This document shows, one piece after another, positions 99 to 9,469 of a DNA stretch of 9,469 nt. The notes under the pieces are model-generated. The model ran no database searches. It was given only the letters and a program-made list of their open reading frames with translations, and was not told where the DNA came from. Source of the stretch: Smithella sp. ME-1 (GTDB taxonomy: Bacteria; Desulfobacterota; Syntrophia; Syntrophales; Smithellaceae); the NCBI GenBank assembly GCA_000495415.1, contig AWGX01000802.1, positions 1 through 9,469 on the forward strand. The letters run 5' to 3'. Both the position numbers and the translations under genes were made by a program. How positions within the stretch are numbered: the stretch's first letter is position 1; every line of letters starts with the position of its first letter.

Positions 99-536
99 AT
101 GGAATTTGAACCGAAAATATTAGGCATTGCCTGCAACTGGTGTACCTATACGGGAGCGGATTTGGCCGGAACAACAAGACTGCACTATCCGCAGAACTTA
201 CGAGTTGTCCGCGTGATGTGTTCCAGCCGCATCAATCCTTCATTTATTTTCCGCGCATTTCAACTGGGAGCGGACGGTGTGTTGGTCGGCGGCTGTCATC
301 CGGGCGATTGCCATTACAACACTGGCAATCTTTATGCGCGTAGAAGGCTGGCGGTGACCAGAAAAATACTGGAGTTTGCCGGAATTGAGCCGGGAAGATT
401 TCGTGTGGAATGGATTTCCGCCTCCGAGGGTAATAAATTCGCTGAGGTTGTCACCGAATTTACCGAGCAGGTCAAAAACCTTGGACCACAGACAAAATTC
501 AAGATTGAAAGTGAGCCATTGCCGGAGAAGATATGA
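99..536 (+). CDS. flxD: MvhD-like [2Fe-2S] electron-transfer subunit (FlxD-like)
   Basis: This 145-residue protein is a full-length, single-domain member of the MvhD family, the small iron-sulfur subunit that links an electron-donating module to heterodisulfide reductase HdrA. The family's five cysteines are present: C12 and C15 in CNWCTYTGAD, C41 in VMCSSRINP, and C66 and C71 in GGCHPGDCHY. In methanogens MvhD joins hydrogenase to Hdr; in anaerobic bacteria the counterpart FlxD joins the NAD(P)H-oxidising FlxABC proteins to HdrABC. The three following genes fit FlxC, FlxB and FlxA, so I favour FlxD over a hydrogenase subunit, and no hydrogenase large subunit is in the window. It has no signal peptide and should be cytoplasmic. 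GAAAGGAAAG at 86-95 is a good ribosome-binding site. Its stop overlaps the next start as ATGA (533-536), so the two are probably translationally coupled. hdrABC would be expected upstream, outside the window. Confidence 0.88.
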   Translation: MEFEPKILGIACNWCTYTGADLAGTTRLHYPQNLRVVRVMCSSRINPSFIFRAFQLGADGVLVGGCHPGDCHYNTGNLYARRRLAVTRKILEFAGIEPGRFRVEWISASEGNKFAEVVTEFTEQVKNLGPQTKFKIESEPLPEKI

Positions 537-1399
537 GCATCAATTTTAAGCAAATTGAAGACAGACTAAAAACTGAAGCAAAAAAATTGCTGGAAGAAGA
601 AAAGGTGAGCCTCGTGCTGGCCTATGGGAAAGGTTACGATGAAAAACATCCCCTGCCTTATGTTGCCAGAAAGACTTCCGATATCGAAAATATCGTTTTC
701 AACGAATACTGCACAGCGAACATGGCGCGTTATCTGGTTCGTTATCCGCGCGGAACAAAAATCGCCATCGCTGTCAAGGCGGCGGACAGCCGAGCGGTTA
801 TTCAACTGATTCAGGAAGACAAGGTAAAGCGGGAAGATCTCATTGTTTTAGGGATTCCGGTTTATGGGATGAAGAATTTCAAAACCGGTGAAACCATCGA
901 CAGCAAAACAACCTGCGGAATGTATAATCCGGTTATCTATGACACGCTGCTGGGCGAAGAAGTGCATGGCCAGCCGATTGTTTCACCGTACGACGTTCTT
1001 GCCGAGTATGAAAAAATGGATAAAGACGCGCGCTGGGCGTTCTGGAAAAAGGAACTCGATCGCTGTATCCGCTGTTATGCCTGCCGCAAGGCCTGTCCAA
1101 TGTGTTACTGCGATCCCTGCTTTATCGATCAGAACAAACCCAAGTGGGGCGAAAAATCGCCGGAGTCGCACGGAAACCTGATGTATCACCTGACCCGGTT
1201 TCATCATCTGGCCGGCCGCTGCATTGATTGCGGTGAATGTTCACGTGCCTGTCCCGTGGATATTCCGCTTTATCTGTTCCACAAAAAAGTAGCGAAGGAA
1301 TGCGAGGAAATGTTCGGCCAGGCCGCGGGAATGAAGATTGAAGACAAACCTGCGCTGGTTAATTTCCGCGTGGACGATTCCGATAAAATTCTGGAGTAA
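533..1399 (+). CDS. flxC: 4Fe-4S dicluster electron-transfer protein (FlxC-like)
   Basis: The 288-residue product has two parts. Residues about 20-125 resemble the N-terminal region found in FrhB/HdrA-linked iron-sulfur proteins, including a KAADSRAVIQLIQE stretch (82-95) like the KGCDSR motif of that group. Residues about 175-245 form a two-cluster ferredoxin domain. The first cluster motif is C178, C181, C184 and C188-Pro, followed by extra cysteines C191, C193 and C196. The second is C230, C233, C236 and C240-Pro. It probably relays electrons between the flavin subunit and the MvhD-like protein, in the cytoplasm. The start overlaps the upstream stop by ATGA, and the next gene begins 20 bases downstream. 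The flxC letter is assigned by family resemblance and gene context and is tentative; the ferredoxin-type redox role is secure. The extra CxCxxC cysteines could hold a further cluster or be structural. Confidence 0.75.
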   Translation: MSINFKQIEDRLKTEAKKLLEEEKVSLVLAYGKGYDEKHPLPYVARKTSDIENIVFNEYCTANMARYLVRYPRGTKIAIAVKAADSRAVIQLIQEDKVKREDLIVLGIPVYGMKNFKTGETIDSKTTCGMYNPVIYDTLLGEEVHGQPIVSPYDVLAEYEKMDKDARWAFWKKELDRCIRCYACRKACPMCYCDPCFIDQNKPKWGEKSPESHGNLMYHLTRFHHLAGRCIDCGECSRACPVDIPLYLFHKKVAKECEEMFGQAAGMKIEDKPALVNFRVDDSDKILE

Positions 1400-1419
1400 A
1401 AACAAAGGAGACACTTGTT

Positions 1420-2457
1420 GTGTTGAAAAAAGCAGCAATTCAAAAAATATCAGATCTGGCCGCTGAACTGTTGGAAAAAGGAACGCTGGTCGCACCCGTT
1501 AAGGAAGAAGCAGGCTATAATTTCCGCGAGATTTCCGATGCCAAACAGGTGGATTTGAATTTCTACAATACGCTGATGAGTCCCAAGTCGGCATTCTTTC
1601 CGCAAACGGAAGATTTTGTTCATTATGATAAAAACAAGTCCGTTCAGGATGCGCAGTGCGTAAGTTTGGATTTAAAGCCGGTTTTTCTTTTCGGTGTTCG
1701 CCCCTGTGATGTGAAGAGTTTTGAGATAATGGATATTCATTTTTCCGGTACGGGTGCGGTTGACCCATACTGGAAGAAGAGAAGAGAAGCCACGACTGTT
1801 TTCGGTTATGCCTTTGATCTGAATACGCCTGCCGACAAGGCAGATTTCTATTCGGCTCTGAACATTGGTGCGGCCGATCCGGAAGGCAGTGATATCTTTA
1901 TGATGAAAAAAGGCGATGATCTGCTTTTGAAAGCCGTCACACCCAAGGGAGAAACCCTTCTGGCTTCATTGAGTTCGCTTGCTGACGATTCAGAGAATGA
2001 ACAGAAATATTTTGATGACACTGTTGTCGCGGGACGCTCTTTCAAAACCCGCTTTACCTGTGTGGACGATAAAGTTATTGCCAAGAAACTGGAAGATATT
2101 TTCCTTAAAACGGAGTTCTGGGAAAAGATTTCCGATGCATGTTTAAGCTGCGGCGCCTGTACGTTTGTCTGTCCTACATGTTATTGTTTTGACATCTGTG
2201 ATGAAACGCTTTTCAGCAAAGGAGTCCGCAAGCGTGTCTGGGATGCCTGCATGTTCACGGATTTCACGCTGGAAGCGAGTGGTCACAATCCCCGCACGAA
2301 AGTTTATCAACGTTTGCGGCAGAAAGTATGTCATAAATATTCGTTTCACATTAGAAAATACGGAGTGATTTCCTGCGTCGGCTGCGGCCGCTGCACGCGC
2401 AACTGTCCGGTGAATATCGATATTTTCTCGATTGTGGATCAGGCGTTGAAATTATAA
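1420..2457 (+). CDS. flxB: AsrA/HydB-like 4Fe-4S dicluster subunit (FlxB-like)
   Basis: This 345-residue protein matches the beta subunit family of sulfhydrogenase and anaerobic sulfite reductase A. The family signature GVRPCDVKSFEIMD sits at 92-105, followed by DPYW (115-118). Two C-terminal 4Fe-4S motifs are seen: C241, C244, C247, C251-Pro, then C254, C256 and C260; and C319, C322, C325, C329-Pro. It should carry electrons between the FAD/NAD(P)-binding subunit (the gene at 2611) and the rest of the complex. The start is GTG at 1420, chosen because AAAGGAG (1404-1410) lies 9 bases upstream. Relatives of the AsrA/HydB type that I recall have a cysteine-rich stretch after the DPYW region. 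Here the matching part, FGYAFDLNTPADK (128-140), has no cysteine, so one metal site may be missing. About 150 bases containing a repeat separate it from the next gene. Confidence 0.8.
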   Translation: MLKKAAIQKISDLAAELLEKGTLVAPVKEEAGYNFREISDAKQVDLNFYNTLMSPKSAFFPQTEDFVHYDKNKSVQDAQCVSLDLKPVFLFGVRPCDVKSFEIMDIHFSGTGAVDPYWKKRREATTVFGYAFDLNTPADKADFYSALNIGAADPEGSDIFMMKKGDDLLLKAVTPKGETLLASLSSLADDSENEQKYFDDTVVAGRSFKTRFTCVDDKVIAKKLEDIFLKTEFWEKISDACLSCGACTFVCPTCYCFDICDETLFSKGVRKRVWDACMFTDFTLEASGHNPRTKVYQRLRQKVCHKYSFHIRKYGVISCVGCGRCTRNCPVNIDIFSIVDQALKL

Positions 2458-2473
2458 GCCGCTATTATTGTTT

Positions 2474-2582
2474 TATCCCCCTTAAGAGGGGGTGTCCCGA
2501 TGCGGCATCGGGACGGGGGAGGAAAGAATTTCAGAGTGAAGAGAGAAACATCCACCCCCTTCCCCCCGCCAGCGGGGGACAC
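2474..2582. repeat. GC-rich palindromic intergenic repeat, copy B
   Basis: Three hairpins can be read. CCCCC (2477-2481) pairs with GGGGG (2488-2492). GTCCCGATG (2494-2502), loop CGG, pairs perfectly with CATCGGGAC (2506-2514). CCCCCGC (2563-2569), loop CA, pairs with GCGGGGG (2572-2578). The ends, TATCCCCC and GGGGGACA, are imperfect inverted repeats. Blocks GGGGGAGGA (2515-2523), TTTCAGA (2529-2535) and ATCCACC (2550-2556) match copy A at the start of the window in the same order. No T-run follows any of the hairpins, so it is not a typical intrinsic terminator. It fills the gap between the FlxB-like and FlxA-like genes and could tune or stabilise the transcript there. REP- or MITE-like origin is inferred from the shape; no protein is encoded. 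Confidence 0.7.
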
Positions 2583-2610
2583 AAATAGAAAATATTTTTA
2601 AGGAAGGAAT

Positions 2611-3471
2611 ATGTCCGAAAATAATCCATACATTCCCATGCCGGTGGAAATAGTAAAAATCATCGACGAAGTGAATACCCATGATATCAAATCGTTTCGT
2701 CTGAAGTTTTTGAGTAAAGAAGACGAAGCAAAGTTTAAGTATCTTCCCGGCCAGTTTTCCGAACTATCCATTTACGGCAAAGGTGAATCTCCCATTGGAA
2801 TTGCTTCTTCACCGACCGAACCCGGTTATGTTGAATTTACTGTGCAGCGGGCGGGCGCCATCCAGCCTGGTTTGGTAACAGCTGCTCTACATGATATGGA
2901 TGAAGGCGCGAAAATCGGCTTACGCGGACCGCTGGGGAATTCCTGGCCGATTGAATTTCTGGAGAAAAAAAACATCGTGGTGGTGGGCGGCGGATTTGCT
3001 TTCACGACGTTGCGTTCTTTAATCAATTATATGCTGCACAAGGACAACCGTTCCCGTTTCGGCGAAATTACGGTTATTTACGGGGCGAGAACACCCGGTT
3101 TGCTTTTGTACAAGGACGAGCTGGCTGCGTGGGAGAAAAGAGACGATATTAAAACAATTATTACCGTAGATAAAGGAGACGAAACCTGGAAAGGCAGAGA
3201 GGGTTTTGTTCCTGCTGTTTGCAAGGAGGTGGCCCCATCGCCGAAAAACGCGGTGGCGGTTATCTGCGGACCTCCGATTATGATCAAGTTCACTCTGCCG
3301 GTATTTTTCGATCTGGGCTTTTCCAAGGAGAATATTCTGACATCGCTGGAAATGCGCATGAAATGCGGCATCGGCAAATGCGGCCGCTGTAATGTCGGAT
3401 TTAAATATGTCTGCTCGGACGGTCCTGTATTTTCTTTGGCCGAACTTGACGAATTACCCAGAGATTTTTAG
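2611..3471 (+). CDS. flxA: FAD/NAD(P)-binding reductase subunit with C-terminal Cys cluster (FlxA-like)
   Basis: At 286 residues this has the usual length of the AsrB / sulfhydrogenase gamma family. Order of parts: a flavin-binding beta-barrel with PGQF (46-49) and GESPIGIASSP (58-68); a Rossmann NAD(P)-binding part with VVVGGGFAFTTLR (123-135) and CGPP (219-222); and a C-terminal cluster site with C252, C257, C260 and C268 in the family pattern MKCGIGKCGRCNVG...VCSDGPVF. It should take hydride from NADH or NADPH onto FAD and pass electrons to the iron-sulfur subunits, in the cytoplasm. The glycine-rich loop differs from the GGGIGLAPLR that I associate with many AsrB/HydG proteins; the change may mark the Flx branch or alter nucleotide preference. 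AGGAAGG at 2601-2607 supports the ATG start. It closes the redox module, and a long gap follows. Whether it uses NADH or NADPH cannot be told from sequence. Confidence 0.82.
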   Translation: MSENNPYIPMPVEIVKIIDEVNTHDIKSFRLKFLSKEDEAKFKYLPGQFSELSIYGKGESPIGIASSPTEPGYVEFTVQRAGAIQPGLVTAALHDMDEGAKIGLRGPLGNSWPIEFLEKKNIVVVGGGFAFTTLRSLINYMLHKDNRSRFGEITVIYGARTPGLLLYKDELAAWEKRDDIKTIITVDKGDETWKGREGFVPAVCKEVAPSPKNAVAVICGPPIMIKFTLPVFFDLGFSKENILTSLEMRMKCGIGKCGRCNVGFKYVCSDGPVFSLAELDELPRDF

Positions 3472-3514
3472 CCGAGACTTAAAATACTGTGTCCATTTTT
3501 TAGGGTAAAAGAAT

Positions 3515-3549
3515 AATTGAAGAAAAAAACAACAATTTTTTCTTCAATT
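3515..3549. repeat. Perfect 14-bp inverted repeat, 7-nt loop, possible transcription end or element
   Basis: AATTGAAGAAAAAA (3515-3528) pairs without mismatch with TTTTTTCTTCAATT (3536-3549) around loop ACAACAA. It starts 43 bases after the stop of the FlxA-like gene. The stem is AT-rich and no T-run follows the right arm on the + strand, so it is a poor match to a classic intrinsic terminator. GTGTCC (3490-3495) and GGGGAC (3556-3561) flank it in opposite orientation, a pattern that could mark a small palindromic mobile element instead. Its function is not known. Confidence 0.5.
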
Positions 3550-3624
3550 GACATAGGGGACCCGTTATTCCTCCAGTTTCTTTTAAAAATAATATTATCA
3601 AGTTCAAAATTAGCCAATATTTTC

Positions 3625-3653
3625 TTGACATACGAGATTTAAATAATTATAAG
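3625..3653 (+). promoter_or_regulatory. Sigma70-type promoter for the KAS-ACP-ole operon
   Basis: A perfect -35 box TTGACA (3625-3630) is followed by a 17-base spacer and the -10 box TATAAG (3648-3653), five of six matches to consensus. The upstream bases (about 3580-3624) are A/T-rich, as in an UP element. The predicted RNA start is near 3660, giving a leader of roughly 360 nt before the ketosynthase start at 4023. It is the best promoter match in the intergenic region. Confidence 0.6.
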
Positions 3654-3738
3654 CACCGGATAAATAAATCTATTCAAAAAATATTGTTTTAGCATTGCCG
3701 CAAATATCCTCCGCAAGAGGTGAGATAATTTAGTTTGA

Positions 3739-3858
3739 ATGCAAGCGGACAACAAAAAACTAAAAAATAATCACTTCAAGGCGAGGATTAAGCGATTCAA
3801 TAAGTATTACGTAGTTGAATTCGGCAGGGAGATTGTTCATTGTTTTCCCTCTCAATAA
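3739..3858 (+). CDS. Possible 39-residue small protein in the operon leader
   Basis: An ATG ORF of 39 codons plus TAA lies in the leader downstream of the predicted promoter. The peptide starts MQADNKKLKNN and has a basic first half (KKLKNN, KARIKRFNK) and a more hydrophobic end (YYVVEF, IVHCF). AGAGGTGAG at 3716-3724 could serve as a ribosome-binding site but sits 14 bases from the ATG, which is long. An in-frame TGA directly precedes the ATG, so no longer version exists. I recognise no family. Its stop codon falls in the loop of a hairpin (3848-3867), which would fit a leader peptide, but it lacks the run of one amino acid seen in classic attenuators. It may be chance. Confidence 0.25.
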   Translation: MQADNKKLKNNHFKARIKRFNKYYVVEFGREIVHCFPSQ

Positions 3859-3917
3859 ACGGAGAGGTAATTTATTCTAATCTCCGGGGAATTGCTAAAA
3901 ACTTTTTTCGTTTTTTT
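3826..3917 (+). promoter_or_regulatory. Competing hairpins and T-runs in the leader (attenuator-like)
   Basis: Four segments can form mutually exclusive pairs. Segment 1 AGGGAGA (3826-3832) pairs with TTTCCCT (3844-3850), with one G-T pair. Segment 2 CCTCTC (3848-3853) pairs with GAGAGG (3862-3867). Segment 3 CGGAGA (3860-3865) pairs with TCTCCG (3881-3886). T-runs follow at 3903-3908 and 3911-3917. Overlap of the arms means 1:2 excludes 2:3, and 2:3 excludes 3:4. The stems are short (6-7 bp) and the T-runs begin 16 bases after the last stem, so termination activity is uncertain. The candidate leader ORF ends at 3858, inside the 2:3 loop. Confidence 0.25.
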
Positions 3918-4022
3918 ATCTTCTGAGGCTGTGACGTCGGAATTGCTCTAGCGAACGTAGGTATATAACAAAACAATTAAATTGCTAATTATACCAAGAA
4001 GATTTTAATACTGGGCGAGAAA

Positions 4023-5270
4023 ATGTCTGTAAGTAATAATCAAAAAGTCAGAGTTGTTATTACGGGTGTCGGGCTTACCGCACCTAATGCCAATAACCTG
4101 AAGGAGTTTCGCGATGCCCTGCTGAATCAGAAATCGGGAATTACACAGATGGAAGTTCGTTATATGGGTAACGTCGCGGTAGGAAACTGTAATTTCGACG
4201 AACATCTGTATCAAAAGAAAAAAATGCGCAGACGGGGGACCCGGGTAGGCTCAATTTCAATTTATTGCGCTAATGAGGCACTTAAAGACAGCGGATTATC
4301 CCTGGAATCAGTGGTTAAAGATAGAACTGGAATATATCTTGGAATTACAGAGCATGGCAATGTAGAGACTGAAAATGAAATATATGAACTTCATCAGAAC
4401 AATCTTGATGCCAGCTTATGGTCTCATCACCATAATCCAAGAACTGTGGCCAATACGCCTGCCGGTGAAGTCAGTTTAAACATGGGAATAACGGGGCCGG
4501 CCTACACTATTGGCGCTGCCTGTGCCGCGGGGAATATTGGGATTATTCATGGAATGCAAATGCTGCAACTTAACGAAGTTGATTTGGCTTTGGCGGGAGG
4601 GGTTTCCGAAAGCACGGGAACTTTCGGGATATTTGCCGGCTTTAAGAGTCAGGGAGCTCTCGGTTTTCATGAAGATCCGACTAAGGCCAGCCGCCCTCTG
4701 GATATAAGCCGTAATGGTATTGTTGTTTCGGAAGGAGGGGCAATTTTCGTTCTGGAAAGGTTGGGCGATGCCTTGAAAAGAGATGCGAAAATTTACGGTG
4801 AAATTGCCGGCTATCATGTTAATTCCGATGCCGTTGATTTTGTCCTTCCCGATACGCAAAGACAAATAGAGTGCATGAATGCTGCGATGTCTAAGGCAAA
4901 GATAACGGCCAGTGATGTTGATATAGTTAATCTTCATGCCACTGGAACAACGTCCGGAGATATTAATGAGTGCGAAGCAGTTAAAGTAATTTTCGGACAA
5001 TCCGAAAATACGTATATTAATTGTACCAAAGGATTTATTGGTCACGCGATGGGTGCTGCCGGAGCATTAGAACTTGCTGGGAATTTACCGAGTTTTACAG
5101 ATAATAAAATTCATTCGTGTAAATATATTGAAGATATTGATCCCAAATGCAGTCTGAAAAATTTAGTGAATGGTGATCCAGTGGAAAAGGACATAAATTT
5201 CATTTTGAGTAACTCCTTCGGCATGTTGGGAATTAATTCCGTTATAATTGTAAAAAAATGTAGAGAATAA
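4023..5270 (+). CDS. FabF-like beta-ketoacyl-ACP synthase (KAS I/II type)
   Basis: This 415-residue protein has the length and fold signature of a condensing enzyme that adds two-carbon units to an ACP-bound chain. The N-terminal strand is RVVITGVGLTAPNA (10-23). The catalytic Cys-His-His set is complete: C167 in GAACAAG, H305 in NLHATGTTSGD and H341 in KGFIGHAMGAAG, with K336. It should therefore be active and not a chain-length factor. Several motifs depart from housekeeping FabF: TACATG/ASG is replaced by GAACAAG, HGTSTPLGD by HATGTTSGD, and the KS(M/F)TGH style by KGFIGH. This points to a specialised branch, not the main fatty-acid enzyme. The ribosome-binding site is weak (GGGCGAGA, 4013-4020). 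The ACP gene follows after 23 bases and is the likely partner. It is first in the operon and probably elongates the acyl chain later used by OleA. The substrate is not known. Confidence 0.85.
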   Translation: MSVSNNQKVRVVITGVGLTAPNANNLKEFRDALLNQKSGITQMEVRYMGNVAVGNCNFDEHLYQKKKMRRRGTRVGSISIYCANEALKDSGLSLESVVKDRTGIYLGITEHGNVETENEIYELHQNNLDASLWSHHHNPRTVANTPAGEVSLNMGITGPAYTIGAACAAGNIGIIHGMQMLQLNEVDLALAGGVSESTGTFGIFAGFKSQGALGFHEDPTKASRPLDISRNGIVVSEGGAIFVLERLGDALKRDAKIYGEIAGYHVNSDAVDFVLPDTQRQIECMNAAMSKAKITASDVDIVNLHATGTTSGDINECEAVKVIFGQSENTYINCTKGFIGHAMGAAGALELAGNLPSFTDNKIHSCKYIEDIDPKCSLKNLVNGDPVEKDINFILSNSFGMLGINSVIIVKKCRE

Positions 5271-5278
5271 ATTCTAAT

Positions 5279-5286
5279 GGAGGAGG
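5279..5286 (+). promoter_or_regulatory. Strong ribosome-binding site deciding a TTG start
   Basis: GGAGGAGG lies 7 bases before TTG at 5294, the start of the acyl carrier protein. The nearby ATG at 5277-5279 is out of frame, so TTG is the only sensible start. Confidence 0.75.
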
Positions 5287-5293
5287 CGGAAAA

Positions 5294-5548
5294 TTGGACG
5301 TTAAGGCCATAAGACAAAAAATCATTGATATCATAGCTGATATCGCTGTCGATGAGGATATTTCAAATCTTGATGACACTATTAAATTAAGAGATCAACT
5401 TGATTTGGATTCAATGGATTTTCTGGATGTGGTAATGGAACTAAAGAAACGATACAAAATTGAAGTACCCACGGAAGATTACCCGAAGTTGGCAACATTG
5501 AAAAGTTGTATTGAATATCTTGGTCCCAAGTTTTCGTTTAATTCATAA
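5294..5548 (+). CDS. Acyl carrier protein, dedicated to this operon
   Basis: This 84-residue acidic helical protein has the carrier signature DLDSMDF at 37-43; Ser40 is the expected site of the 4'-phosphopantetheine arm. The region after it, LDVVMELKKRYKIEVP (44-59), fits helix II and the following loop of ACPs. Housekeeping AcpP usually reads DSLD followed by an acidic VE pair, so DSMDF and the rest of the sequence suggest a secondary-pathway carrier. It starts with TTG under a very strong ribosome-binding site. Its TAA stop shares a base with the next ATG (TAATG, 5546-5550). It likely holds the chain for the upstream ketosynthase, for the flavoprotein behind it, and possibly for delivery to OleA. 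Which acyl chain it carries cannot be seen. Confidence 0.9.
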   Translation: MDVKAIRQKIIDIIADIAVDEDISNLDDTIKLRDQLDLDSMDFLDVVMELKKRYKIEVPTEDYPKLATLKSCIEYLGPKFSFNS

Positions 5549-6933
5549 TGAATATTTATGACACGGTGATAATAGGTGCGGGTATGTCTGGTCTGGCAGC
5601 CGGAATCAGACTGGCGATGTTTGATCAAAAAGTATGTATTCTGGAAAGACATAACGTACCCGGGGGGCTTAACTCCTATTATGAACGTAAAGGAAGAAAG
5701 CTGGATGTTGGACTTCATGCCATGACCAATTTTGCCTGTCGGGGTGAAAGGGGACGGCCACTGACCAAATTGCTCAAGCAGTTAAGAATACCTTATGAAA
5801 AACTGGAGTTATCACAACAGAATTTTTCCAAAATTTCATTTCCCGGCAATTGTATATCTTTTTCCAACGCCCCGCAGTTACTAATAGCGGAAATCGAAAG
5901 AGACTTTCCTCAACAAAAAGATAATTTTGCAAGGCTCATTGAACTGGTTAAAGATTTTGACGATGTTAACTTGAATAATAAACAGCAGAGTGCTAAAAAA
6001 AAAGTCAGGGGAATTATTTCTGATGAACATTTGCTGGAAATGATTTTCTGTCCTTTGTTGATTTATGGAAGCGCCTGGGAAAATGACATGGATTTTTCCC
6101 AATTCGTCATCATGTTTAAAAGCATTTACCTGGAAGGTTTCAGCCGTCCTAAGAATGGAGTACGCACCGTCATAAATCTTCTACTTGAAAAATTTAAGCA
6201 ACTCGGTGGAGAATTGCGTCTGGGAACCGGTGTGAAGACGATAAATGTTGAAAACGGCTCGGTTACCGGCGTGACACTGGATTCCGGAGAAAAAATTCAG
6301 TCTACAAAGATTTTGTCGTCAATCGGTCTGCCGGAAACAATGAACATTGTTTCCGGGGGGAGTGAATCTACTGCTATAGGTAGCATGAGTTTTACAGAGA
6401 CGATTTTATTTTTTGATAAAAAACCGGGTGATAATGGAATCAAAGAAACCATTATATTTTGCAACGACAATGACAAATATGACTATAAACAACCGCAAAC
6501 TCTTTGTGATTACCGCAGTGCCGTAATTTGTTTTCCTAATAATTTTGGTTGTGACGACTATGAGGAAGGAATAATTCGTGTCACATTTATCGCCAATTTT
6601 GAAAAATGGAATGAATTGGATAGAAAAACTTATCTTAAAAGCAAGCAGGAAGTATATAATGAAGCGATGACATTGATTACCAGACTATTTCCTGATTTTC
6701 AGGCCAACTTGCTTTATCATGACGTTTTTACGCCTATGACTATCATGCGTTACACAGGTCATTTTAAAGGAGCTGTCTATGGCAGCACGCAAAAAGCCAG
6801 AGACGGCAGAACCGGCATTAAAAATCTTTTTATCTGCGGCACCGATCAGGGCTTTTTGGGGATAGTAGGAGCTATGTTGAGTGGCATTTCGATGGCAAAT
6901 CTTCATTGCCTGATGAATGGAGAGAAAGCATGA
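5548..6933 (+). CDS. Phytoene-desaturase-like FAD-dependent oxidoreductase
   Basis: The 461-residue product is a CrtI-type flavoprotein. The dinucleotide-binding loop VIIGAGMSGLAAG is at 7-19, followed by the ERH..PGGLNS region (33-43) and RKLDVGLHAM (50-59), which is like the second FAD contact of the family. The C-terminal FAD motif is LFICGTDQGFLGIVGAMLSG (427-446). It is slightly shorter than carotenoid desaturases (about 490 residues), and no carotenoid gene lies nearby. Placed between an ACP gene and oleA, it is more likely to desaturate, saturate or isomerise a polyene acyl chain than a carotenoid; this is inference. No ribosome-binding site is visible before its ATG, so translation probably depends on coupling to the ACP gene (TAATG). 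It ends in ATGA with oleA. Similar phytoene-desaturase-like genes next to FabF and ACP genes have been discussed as candidates for ladderane lipid synthesis in anammox bacteria. Confidence 0.8.
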   Translation: MNIYDTVIIGAGMSGLAAGIRLAMFDQKVCILERHNVPGGLNSYYERKGRKLDVGLHAMTNFACRGERGRPLTKLLKQLRIPYEKLELSQQNFSKISFPGNCISFSNAPQLLIAEIERDFPQQKDNFARLIELVKDFDDVNLNNKQQSAKKKVRGIISDEHLLEMIFCPLLIYGSAWENDMDFSQFVIMFKSIYLEGFSRPKNGVRTVINLLLEKFKQLGGELRLGTGVKTINVENGSVTGVTLDSGEKIQSTKILSSIGLPETMNIVSGGSESTAIGSMSFTETILFFDKKPGDNGIKETIIFCNDNDKYDYKQPQTLCDYRSAVICFPNNFGCDDYEEGIIRVTFIANFEKWNELDRKTYLKSKQEVYNEAMTLITRLFPDFQANLLYHDVFTPMTIMRYTGHFKGAVYGSTQKARDGRTGIKNLFICGTDQGFLGIVGAMLSGISMANLHCLMNGEKA

Positions 6934-7961
6934 AATTTAAAAACGTCGTTATTTCTTCGTTTGCTTATTATCTTCCCGAGCAAATAATGACTTCAGAGGA
7001 AATCGAAAACAGGCTTGCCTCCGTGTATAAACGGCTCAAACTTCCGGCGGGAAGAATAGAATTGATGACCGGAATCAAAGAAAGACGTTTTTGGCCTCCG
7101 GGAACAAGGCCCAGTGACTTATCCGCTCAGGCAGCCAGAAATTTATTTGAAAAAAATACTGTTAAACCGGAAAATATTGACCTTTTAATACATGCCTCTG
7201 TCTGTCGTGATTTTCTTGAACCTCCAACATCATCAATCGTTCACCATAACCTGGGGCTGCGACCGGAAACAATATTTTTTGACCTGTCCAATGCTTGTCT
7301 TGGTGTGATGAGTTCCATTGTTGTTGCCGCCAATATGATCGAAAACAATTTTATTAAGCATGCTCTTATCGTATCCGGTGAGAATGGCAGTCCGCTGCTG
7401 TTTCAGACAATTGAACGGTTGTTACAGGATGATGGTCTGACAAGAAAGGGTATAAAAAAGTACATCGCTAATTTAACAATTGGTTCTGCCGCTGTCGCCT
7501 ATACTGTCTCGCATAAAGATTGTGTTCCTGACGGTCATTTGCTGTTGGGTGGAGCATCTCTTGCCGATTCTTCTGCCAATGTTCTTTGCCACGGCGATGG
7601 TAATACATCGTCGCTGATGATGGAAACCGATTCCGAGGAACTGATGCAATCCGGTGTTGCTCTGGCTAAAAAAACATGGGAAGAAACAAAACGTGAACTT
7701 GAATGGACCAACGAAGATGTTGATTGTTTTATCGGTCATCAGGTTGGTGTGGCACATGAAACTCTTTTAAAACAGACGTTAAAACTCGATAATTGTCCAA
7801 CCTTTACAACTTATGGATATCTGGGGAACACCGGTGCGTCGGCCCTGCCCATTACACTTAATCTTTTTGAGGAACAAAAAGGTATTGCCAGGGGAAGCAA
7901 TGTCGGTTTGCTGGGCATCGGTTCAGGCCTTAATTCGATAATGCTGGGGGTAAAGTGGTAA
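6930..7961 (+). CDS. oleA: OleA, head-to-head acyl condensing thiolase-fold enzyme
   Basis: OleA joins two fatty-acyl thioesters head to head to give a 2-alkyl-3-ketoacid, the first step of long-chain olefin synthesis. From the ATG at 6930 the protein has 343 residues. All four residues known to matter in OleA are in place: E97 in FLEPPTSS (the glutamate that sets OleA apart from FabH), C123 in SNACLG, H270 in GHQVG and N300 in GYLGNTGAS. I chose ATG 6930 over the in-frame TTG at 6906 because GGAGAG (6919-6924) sits 5 bases before it, it makes the usual ATGA overlap with the preceding stop, and MKFKNVVISSFAYYLPE is a normal start for the family. It overlaps oleB by 7 bases. It may take acyl-CoA or the product of the operon's own ACP. 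If no OleB/C/D acted, the product would decarboxylate to a ketone. Confidence 0.9.
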   Translation: MKFKNVVISSFAYYLPEQIMTSEEIENRLASVYKRLKLPAGRIELMTGIKERRFWPPGTRPSDLSAQAARNLFEKNTVKPENIDLLIHASVCRDFLEPPTSSIVHHNLGLRPETIFFDLSNACLGVMSSIVVAANMIENNFIKHALIVSGENGSPLLFQTIERLLQDDGLTRKGIKKYIANLTIGSAAVAYTVSHKDCVPDGHLLLGGASLADSSANVLCHGDGNTSSLMMETDSEELMQSGVALAKKTWEETKRELEWTNEDVDCFIGHQVGVAHETLLKQTLKLDNCPTFTTYGYLGNTGASALPITLNLFEEQKGIARGSNVGLLGIGSGLNSIMLGVKW

Positions 7962-8815
7962 GACCGGACTGGTTAAATAAATTATATCCCTTCAAGTCAA
8001 ATTTTCTTAAACTGAAAAGTAACTTCTCCATGCACTATGTCGATGAGGGTCAGGGCATGCCGATAATAATGCTTCATGGTAATCCTACATGGTCCTTTTA
8101 TTACAGAAATTTGATTGCCGCATTTTCTTCCTCCCACAGAGTAGTTGTTCCTGATCATATCGGCTGCGGTCTTTCCGATAAACCACAGGATTATGAATAT
8201 ACGTTAAAACAGCATATTGATAATCTGGAAACGCTTGTTTCGTACTTGGGGCTAAAAGATTTTGTTCTGATTGTTCATGACTGGGGCGGGCCTATCGGGT
8301 TCGGGCTTTTAGAGCGGCATCCGAGTTTAGTCAAAAAAATAGTTATTTTTAATACGGCGGCCTACATTTCCAAAGTAATCGCTTTCCGGATAAATATCTG
8401 CCGCATTCCGATTTTGGCCGAGCAGATAATTCGCCGGCTGAACGGATTCGCGCTTACCGCTACTTACATGGCGGTGGCCAAAAAAATGCCACCGGAAATA
8501 AGAAAAGGATATCTTTACCCTTATGACAATTATAATAATCGCGTTGCCATAGCGCGATTTGTCGCCGATATCCCCATGAATCCCAGACATTGCAGTTATC
8601 AGACATTAAATAACGTAGAGCTATCGCTTTCTAAACACCATTGTCCGTGTCTTATTCTCTGGGGAAAACGTGATTTCTGTTTTCACGATTATTTTCTAAA
8701 TCGTTGGATGGAAATATATCCTCACGCTACAGTAAAAACATTTGAATCAGCCGGGCATTATGTGCTGGAAGATGCGGGTGAGGAAATAATTAAAGAATTA
8801 AAAAAGTTTCTGTAA
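7955..8815 (+). CDS. oleB: OleB, beta-lactone decarboxylase (alpha/beta hydrolase)
   Basis: The 286-residue protein resembles haloalkane dehalogenases, the family OleB belongs to. In the ole pathway OleB removes CO2 from the beta-lactone made by OleC, giving the cis olefin. Key parts: HGNPTWS (41-47) with the oxyanion and halide-site Asn43, nucleophile D109 in HDWGGPIG, D240 in WGKRDFCF as the likely charge-relay acid, and H268 in AGHYVLED. The GTG at 7955 gives a normal N-terminus, and a G-rich stretch at 7945-7950 may bind the ribosome; it overlaps the oleA stop by 7 bases. Position between oleA and oleC makes OleB far more likely than a true dehalogenase. OleB and OleC are fused in many actinobacteria; here they are separate genes, as in many Gram-negative bacteria. 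OleBCD form a large assembly in studied species, probably cytoplasmic. Confidence 0.88.
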   Translation: MVRPDWLNKLYPFKSNFLKLKSNFSMHYVDEGQGMPIIMLHGNPTWSFYYRNLIAAFSSSHRVVVPDHIGCGLSDKPQDYEYTLKQHIDNLETLVSYLGLKDFVLIVHDWGGPIGFGLLERHPSLVKKIVIFNTAAYISKVIAFRINICRIPILAEQIIRRLNGFALTATYMAVAKKMPPEIRKGYLYPYDNYNNRVAIARFVADIPMNPRHCSYQTLNNVELSLSKHHCPCLILWGKRDFCFHDYFLNRWMEIYPHATVKTFESAGHYVLEDAGEEIIKELKKFL

Positions 8816-8865
8816 TTTGTTTTATAGCGACATTAAAAAATAATTACGGTGAGAAACTGTCAATC

Positions 8866-9469
8866 ATGAATATCGCTGATCGTTTTACACAGATAGCCCG
8901 CACACATCAGCAAAAAATTGCAGTAAAATTTCCCCGTCGGGCGGGCAATAAGTATAACTATGATGTCATCACTTTTGGGGAATTAGAATCTTTGGTTGAC
9001 AAGTATGCCAACGGCCTTTCCCAAATCGGATTTAGCCGTGGAAGTAAAACTCTTCTTTTTGTCAGGCCGTCATTACAATTTCCCGCTCTGGTTTTTGCAC
9101 TTTTCAAATTGGGAGTAATACCGGTATTGATTGATCCCGGTATGGGCAGAAAAAATCTTCTGGCTGCAATTGAAGAAGTAGCACCTGAAGGATTGATTGC
9201 GGAACCGGAAGTGCACTTTTTAAGTTTGCTTTTCGGCAAGTCCTTTAAATCTGTTAAATTCAAAGTATCAACCAAATGGCCCCAAATAGGGAATTGCGTC
9301 CCTCTGGTTCATCTAGAGAGTTGTGATGCAACTTTTGTTAGCGAGCAGCTGGAACCGGATGAAATGGCGGCGATTCTTTTTACTTCGGGCGGAACAGGAC
9401 GCCCGAAGGGAGTTGTCTATACGCATAAAATTTATACTGAGCAAACGCGTCTTCTTCAGGAACTTTTTG
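8866..9469 (+). CDS. oleC: OleC, beta-lactone synthetase (AMP-forming), N-terminal part only
   Basis: The reading frame runs open from ATG 8866 to the window end: 201 codons and one extra base, against a usual family length of roughly 550 residues. OleC uses ATP to close the 2-alkyl-3-hydroxy acid into a beta-lactone. The N-terminus MNIADRFTQIARTHQQKIAV is typical of the OleC/acyl-CoA-synthetase fold. IDPGMGRKNL with the following AIEEVAPEG is a stretch I associate with OleC. The ATP-binding loop LFTSGGTGRPKGVVYTHK is near residues 169-186. The loop reads SGGTG where most relatives have SGSTG, a mild change. It starts 51 bases after oleB with only a weak ribosome-binding site (GGTGAG, 8848-8853). 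The NAD(P)H-dependent reductase OleD, which acts before OleC, is not in the window and should follow downstream. The adenylation domain's C-terminal part is beyond the edge. Confidence 0.87.
   Translation, partial: MNIADRFTQIARTHQQKIAVKFPRRAGNKYNYDVITFGELESLVDKYANGLSQIGFSRGSKTLLFVRPSLQFPALVFALFKLGVIPVLIDPGMGRKNLLAAIEEVAPEGLIAEPEVHFLSLLFGKSFKSVKFKVSTKWPQIGNCVPLVHLESCDATFVSEQLEPDEMAAILFTSGGTGRPKGVVYTHKIYTEQTRLLQELF

Follow-up and report, generated by a model that had tools for sequence, protein, structure and literature searches.

The stretch analysed here, called the window, comprises positions 1 to 9,469 of contig AWGX01000802.1 from Smithella sp. ME-1. From position 4023 to its end it carries a forward-strand run of six genes, coding for a FabF-like ketosynthase (KS), an acyl carrier protein (ACP), a flavoprotein related to phytoene desaturases (CrtI1) and the enzymes OleA, OleB and OleC. 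This gene set is real, conserved and widespread. We consider it likely that it belongs to a dissociated type II synthase, independent of the multi-domain Pfa synthases, which would supply polyunsaturated acyl-ACP to the Ole enzymes in place of Pfa. The proposal starts from what was observed, namely the genes, their order, their intact catalytic residues, the co-occurrence with OleA and the near-exclusion of Pfa. The pairing of a chain synthase with Ole is already known and a flavoprotein route was hypothesised earlier; in searches of open-access literature, which mostly excludes subscription papers, no title or abstract came up that joins CrtI-like, KS and ACP genes to ole or notes an exclusion of Pfa by such a cluster.

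Gene order and active sites of the run

Catalytic residues were judged by alignment columns across homologous copies. The KS (4023 to 5270; PF00109/PF02801), a member of the chain-building set, scores 286 bits on the fabF model, below the cut-off of 494. The Cys-His-His set read from the window by the initial annotation is indeed intact and also conserved, with the Cys in 71 of 72 copies (one copy lacks the region) and both His in 72 of 72; the Cys, His, Lys and His columns are kept in 71-72 of 72. The ACP (5294 to 5548; PF00550) has a TTG start preceded by GGAGG, and its DSM carrier site, recognised at the same time, holds up, the attachment Ser being present in 76 of 76 copies. CrtI1 (5548 to 6933; PF01593) is a flavin adenine dinucleotide (FAD) protein of the phytoene desaturase / carotenoid isomerase superfamily. 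OleA (6930 to 7961), the head-to-head condensing thiolase, reaches 392 bits on NF006720 (cut-off 285). Aligned to OleA structures, 3row among them, the window copy shows the catalytic Cys, Glu, His and Asn; Cys and Glu are found in 96/96 copies, His and Asn in 92/96, the remaining four being truncated. OleB (7955 to 8815; PF00561 and haloalkane dehalogenase-type models) is an alpha/beta hydrolase, a beta-lactone decarboxylase by its position, whose nucleophile Asp is kept in 76 of 76 copies. OleC (8866 to 9469; PF00501 and olefin beta-lactone synthetase models), the beta-lactone synthetase, is cut by the window end after 201 residues, and its full-length relative in the Smithella locus L010 scores 608 bits on NF006754 (cut-off 478). 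The description as one run of overlapping genes stands for three of the five junctions, ACP/CrtI1 (1 base, TAATG), CrtI1/OleA (4 bases, ATGA) and OleA/OleB (7 bases), and fails for KS/ACP and OleB/OleC, which are separated by short gaps of 23 and 50 bases.

In relatives, five further genes lie beyond the stretch that matches the window and were outside the view of the initial annotation: OleD, a second flavoprotein (CrtI2), FabG, a dehydratase (DH) and FabI. OleD comes after OleC in these relatives, where it scores 388 bits, strong yet below the OleD equivalog cut-off of 580. The dehydratase of relatives is of the FabZ type (Glu in 43/43 copies, Asp in 0/43), and the FabI-like reductase has an intact active site.

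Scanning genome contigs of bacteria and archaea with CrtI1 yielded 47 loci: 11 come from Smithella and its relatives, at 77 to 88% identity, and the other 36 mostly from Bdellovibrionota, at 51 to 60%. The order KS-ACP-CrtI1-OleA-OleB-OleC is present in 42 of these 47 loci, partial copies at contig ends included. Four of the exceptions (L007, L025, L029 and L033) end within the run at a contig edge, and the fifth (L008) is an incomplete draft run in which no ACP or OleB was found. The gene order therefore recurs in two phyla, which rules out a misassembly or a neighbourhood unique to this contig; nor are the KS, ACP and CrtI genes always split from ole. OleD-CrtI2-FabG-DH-FabI follow on the same strand in seven Smithella loci, and 15 of the 36 other loci have a facing-strand FabI behind OleD, plus DH, FabG or CrtI2 up to the limits of the locus; the CrtI2 label within L034 and L037 is a cross-match to CrtI1. 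One locus excluded from gene-order scoring (L088) separately shows part of CrtI1 with CrtI2, FabG, DH and an incomplete FabI behind it, and L048-L071, L089, L090 and L102-L106 were excluded from both motif and gene-order scoring as duplicates or other loci.

Other arrangements occur in the remaining Desulfobacterota. Among 395 sampled genomes, a CrtI1 threshold of E 1e-60 or better selected 21, of which three (G001, G007, G341) are Smithella-like and one (G024) falls outside the wider-locus set. In the 16 scored non-Smithella loci (L072-L087), KS and ACP precede CrtI1 in all 16, and CrtI2 comes directly after it in 14. Five of them (L078, L081, L082, L084, L085) read KS-ACP-CrtI1-CrtI2-FabG-DH-FabI-OleA-OleB-OleC-OleD. 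Even in split operons FabI adjoins OleA, which supports the link to Ole: FabI is directly upstream of OleA in the closed genome G027, and FabG-DH-FabI-OleA-OleB are kept together in G183. OleA is solitary in G351, G369 and G388, with no OleB, OleC or OleD within the fetched stretch. In L087, OleA precedes KS-ACP-CrtI1 and a gene resembling B12-dependent radical S-adenosylmethionine (SAM) enzymes stands immediately after CrtI1.

Over 456 residues the CrtI1 proteins of G662 and Desulfocapsa sulfexigens DSM 10523 are identical, and we therefore took the family of G369 and G662 to be Desulfocapsaceae, to which NCBI assigns Desulfotalea psychrophila too. KS-ACP-CrtI1-CrtI2-FabG is found in 10 of 10 fetched loci of this family, and DH in nine. 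OleC was found in all 10 genomes searched, and in seven of them no more than 25 kb separate it from CrtI1, which again supports the link to Ole; elsewhere it is 151 kb away (G667) or on a separate contig (G351, G388). In the six fetched of the seven genomes with a near OleC, OleB-OleC-OleD are together, and they face the module about 7 kb off in five (L152-L154, L156, L157) and lie about 18 kb from it in G662 (L155). OleA stands apart from the module in this family; in G662, for instance, CrtI1 is 2.2 Mb away.

Co-occurrence with OleA and near-exclusion of Pfa

The initial annotation asked whether the KS, ACP and CrtI genes co-occur with oleA; for CrtI1 the co-occurrence is pronounced. In the 395 Desulfobacterota, CrtI1 was found in 21 genomes, OleA in 43 and both in 17, so that OleA is carried by 17 of the 21 CrtI1 genomes and by 26 of the 374 others (Fisher p 7e-15); in 10 of the 17 joint genomes OleA lies within about 7 kb of CrtI1 on the same contig. 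In 240 Bdellovibrionota, CrtI1 was found in 64, OleA in 67 (65 above the cut-off) and both in 61, that is, OleA in 61/64 CrtI1 genomes against 6/176 others (Fisher p 5e-46), and OleA adjoins CrtI1 in 59 of the 61 joint genomes, G544 and G559 being the exceptions. In 93 Desulfocapsaceae the counts are 87 for CrtI1, 89 for OleA (88 above the cut-off) and 84 for both.

Pfa shows the reverse pattern. All 26 Desulfobacterota with OleA and without CrtI1 have a Pfa-like match, 15 above the PfaA cut-off and 11 at 510 to 933 bits, whereas none of the 21 CrtI1 genomes is above the cut-off or exceeds 231 bits. Matches of about 140 to 230 bits are taken as shared domains, because 8 of 14 well-known control genomes also match at 1e-40, none above the cut-off. 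Among the 64 Bdellovibrionota genomes with CrtI1, all searched, none passes the PfaA cut-off and the best reaches 331 bits; of the six with OleA and no CrtI1, one (G592) has a PfaA above the cut-off, and in the other five, all small (1.3 to 2.0 Mb), neither supplier was found. None of the 87 Desulfocapsaceae genomes with CrtI1 is above the cut-off; three genomes of the family stand at 343 to 362 bits. The window genes include no PfaA multi-domain protein either, and with the FabZ-type dehydratase and the lack of PfaA above the cut-off in CrtI1 genomes we reject membership of the set in a Pfa synthase. In two Pfa-type Desulfobacterota genomes (L100, L101), no match to OleB, OleC or OleD accompanies OleA in the fetched stretch, which raises the question of whether their end product could be a ketone.

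Several points weigh against the idea that the set feeds Ole in place of Pfa. The PfaA search covered the genomes with OleA or CrtI1 rather than all 395 or 240. In 7 of the 17 Desulfobacterota genomes that have both, OleA and the module are at different places, and CrtI1 occurs with no OleA found in 4/21, 3/64 and 3/87 genomes of the three sets, many assemblies being fragmentary. Neither supplier was found in the five small Bdellovibrionota genomes or in five Desulfocapsaceae genomes with OleA. One Desulfocapsaceae genome, G651, combines CrtI1, OleA and a Pfa-like match of 695 bits; it is the sole clear exception and may be a contamination or a true double carrier. Moreover, the five supplier labels need only five changes on the OleA tree, and the Fisher p values overstate independence because the genomes are related. 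Four of the five small genomes (L091, L092, L093, L138) hold oleABCD alone and their OleA form one clade, while the fifth is a fragment.

Some of these points would also suit a different view, in which KS, ACP and the flavoproteins make another product, such as a membrane lipid or a pigment, and stay beside ole by shared inheritance while Ole uses housekeeping chains. Genomes with oleABCD and neither supplier do exist, CrtI1 lacks a found OleA in 10 genomes across the three sets, and OleA is apart from the module in Desulfocapsaceae. However, linkage is kept in three arrangements (oleABCD within the run, oleABCD behind FabI in the five Desulfobacterota loci above, and oleBCD facing the module), and this view leaves the Pfa pattern unexplained; we regard it as quite improbable. 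That the genes are passengers is likewise unlikely given the gene order, the splitting pattern and the Pfa pattern. A supply of chains to OleA from the local genes, as proposed by the initial annotation, is backed in part, by gene order and by co-occurrence with OleA; the presumed flavoprotein reaction and product are discussed below.

The trees suggest how the cluster came to its hosts. The OleA tree has 92 rows, OleA rows of fewer than 300 residues being left out, and the CrtI1 and KS trees were made from chosen subsets of 65 and 57 rows by a quick method. In all three the window sequences pair with the Smithella locus L010, without support for the pair in the KS tree. Smithella KS are nested among Bdellovibrionota KS, with a Shimodaira-Hasegawa-like approximate likelihood ratio test (SH-aLRT) value of 99 for the joint group and 89 for the nesting fork, and Smithella OleA groups with Bdellovibrionota rows, apart from other Desulfobacterota; the CrtI1 tree is less resolved than these two. 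Because the KS and OleA trees come together with a shared insertion of oleABCD behind CrtI1, the sequences suggest a transfer of the cluster between the Smithella and Bdellovibrionota groups. The OleA of G592, the Bdellovibrionota genome with PfaA, falls within the Pfa-type Desulfobacterota clade (fork 100/100), a point in favour of the proposed supply.

The flavoproteins and the nature of the chain

In the proposed pathway, KS and ACP would work with FabG, the FabZ-type dehydratase and the FabI-like reductase to elongate a chain on a private ACP, so that the run in the window would be one half of a chain synthase whose rest lies just past the window in relatives. CrtI1 and, beyond the window, CrtI2 would introduce or preserve double bonds. 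We infer that the chain is polyunsaturated and is taken by OleA from the ACP of the set; OleA would condense two chains in head-to-head fashion, and the action of OleD, OleC and OleB on its product would yield a polyunsaturated long-chain alkene, probably of C31:8/C31:9 type. Between the polyunsaturated hydrocarbon and the ketone that the initial annotation had offered, the ketone is less likely, given OleB and OleC here and OleD in relatives.

Pfa-like synthases were linked to Ole, Geobacter included (Shulse and Allen 2011, PMC3098273), and OleA connects Pfa to C31:9 in Shewanella, with recognition of the cognate ACP suggested (Allemann 2019, PMC6463001). These Pfa-fed systems resemble the present one in that OleA is accompanied by OleB, OleC and OleD, the genome also encodes a dedicated chain synthase and a polyunsaturated hydrocarbon is expected. 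They differ in that the set found here is made up of small individual proteins, among them a single ACP and two CrtI-like flavoproteins, in genomes that, G651 excepted, are without Pfa. Pfa synthases possess FabA-like isomerising dehydratase domains, whereas the dehydratase of this set is of the FabZ type. The plain oleABCD operon of the Xanthomonas type also has the four Ole proteins, their active sites conserved, but has no KS, ACP or CrtI-like gene and draws on general acyl-CoA. As for activity of OleA, screening with p-nitrophenyl esters showed an OleA of Halobacteriovorax marinus to be active (PMC7064751); our locus L023 belongs to this species, the match to that enzyme being by species only.

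The flavoprotein between ACP and OleA was the step that the initial annotation could not explain. An AlphaFold model of CrtI1 (mean predicted local distance difference test score, pLDDT, 85.9), with 4rep as the closest solved fold, predicts that it shares the CrtI fold, and the FAD motif is also shared with the carotenoid desaturase CrtI and the isomerase CRTISO. On the other hand, identity to solved members of this type is 16 to 21%, the scores are far below curated cut-offs and the gene setting is one of fatty-acid genes. The best NCBIfam model is carotenoid isomerase for both proteins, at 98 bits for CrtI1 and 110 for CrtI2 against a cut-off of 587, and a second carotenoid model gives 67 and 76 against 238. 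We therefore reject a carotenoid cluster, although no search for phytoene synthase was made. A homologue search with the CrtI1 alignment passed 8000 of 8000 scored candidates, and the best 120 of the 8000 are close relatives. The flavin-dependent fatty acid isomerase of P. acnes (2b9w) ranked 31st, under many unrelated oxidases, and is a chemical precedent, not a sign of kinship. A third CrtI-like protein, about 22% identical, occurs in L102-L104 and L106, which stem from three genomes of Smithella type and a Halobacteriovorax; there its gene adjoins a KS and, in places, FabG and small carrier/lipoprotein genes, resembling an aryl polyene cluster. Such a cluster was rejected for the present set, since the third protein sits there and CrtI1 does not.

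Two reactions were weighed for CrtI1 and CrtI2. Redox-neutral isomerisation of double bonds is a possibility somewhat short of even, and our leaning to it is weak. Rather unlikely is the variant in which both are true desaturases that oxidise the finished or growing acyl-ACP and pass electrons to a quinone or another acceptor, as proposed by Rattray 2009. This variant has to face a set that holds the full reducing cycle, with the intact FabI-like reductase and the FabZ-type dehydratase, so something must preserve double bonds during elongation. Both flavoproteins, moreover, score best on the isomerase model, albeit far below its cut-off. Hosts such as Smithella are strict anaerobes, which also speaks against the variant.

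A close parallel to our proposal is D. psychrophila, reported to make C31:8 and C31:9 hydrocarbons while having no Pfa-like synthase (Rattray 2009, PMC2649909). Its type II fatty acid synthesis (FASII) clusters hold the CrtI-like proteins DP1860, DP2405 and DP2406, and such clusters were proposed there as an anaerobic route to polyunsaturated chains; the terms 'head-to-head' and 'OleA' are absent from the available text, which does not link the clusters to ole. As in our set, CrtI-like proteins are found among FASII genes in D. psychrophila and Kuenenia; in D. psychrophila two such genes are consecutively numbered (DP2405, DP2406) and a hydrocarbon is made in the absence of a Pfa-like synthase. 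Radical SAM enzymes are named as cluster members there, and the likeness is one of described make-up only (PMC2649909). The third CrtI-like protein mentioned above is possibly the counterpart of DP1860. By this analogy, the set would explain the hydrocarbons of D. psychrophila.

The same resemblance allows another view, in which the chain is special but not methylene-interrupted (conjugated, cyclic or ladderane-like) and is dimerised by Ole. Its make-up is akin to the anammox FASII clusters with CrtI-like proteins (PMC2649909), and in four Smithella loci (L003, L005, L009, L022) two adjacent KS-like genes lie upstream of the KS on the minus strand. In L005 and L009 a B12 radical SAM gene comes next; its best models, TIGR04013 and the ladderane-type TIGR04072, are below cut-off. 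The second KS of the pair in L005 and L009 lacks the active Cys and both His and has Glu at the second His, as with the Glu333 listed for Kuste3606 and Kuste2805 (PMC2649909). Against this view, no radical SAM gene lies within the conserved module except the one beside CrtI1 in L087 (radical SAM genes were noted in or near clusters there and upstream in L005 and L009, outside any systematic search), and the sole product measured in the relevant family is C31:8/C31:9 (PMC2649909). We judge it unlikely. The anammox CrtI-like proteins kuste3336 and kuste3607 produced no lycopene in E. coli (PMC4790861).

Neighbouring genes and biological meaning

Upstream of the run, the window carries an electron-transfer set (99-3471), a different kind of gene set, with genes for an MvhD/FlpD-like protein (99-536), an iron-sulfur (FeS) protein (533-1399), a HydB-like FeS protein (1420-2457) and a HydG/AsrB-like flavoprotein (2611-3471). 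It precedes the KS also in L008 and L010, but in none of the other loci. Another gene in front of the run is common to 26 loci, and one scanned copy resembles MarR/ArsR-type regulators, below all cut-offs. An Rfam scan of the window gave zero matches, and a promoter and terminator scan of positions 3300-5400 stayed at chance level.

A wider idea, which we find possible but doubtful, is that bacteria have a second oxygen-independent route to polyunsaturated chains, in which two flavoproteins like carotenoid isomerases would set cis double bonds in successive rounds on a private ACP and take the part of the isomerising dehydratase domains of Pfa. Such a dissociated synthase would be exchanged for Pfa as a unit beside Ole, and would have kinship with the opening steps of ladderane synthesis. 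The likely supply of Ole by the present set defines a compact group of genes (KS, ACP, CrtI1, CrtI2, FabG, dehydratase and FabI), which is frequent, with CrtI1 in 64 of 240 Bdellovibrionota and 87 of 93 presumed Desulfocapsaceae. It offers a candidate gene set for the puzzle of 2009, that anaerobes such as D. psychrophila make C31:8/C31:9 without a Pfa-like synthase. A part for CrtI-like proteins in anaerobic desaturation has long been guessed at for ladderanes, and it thereby becomes directly testable.

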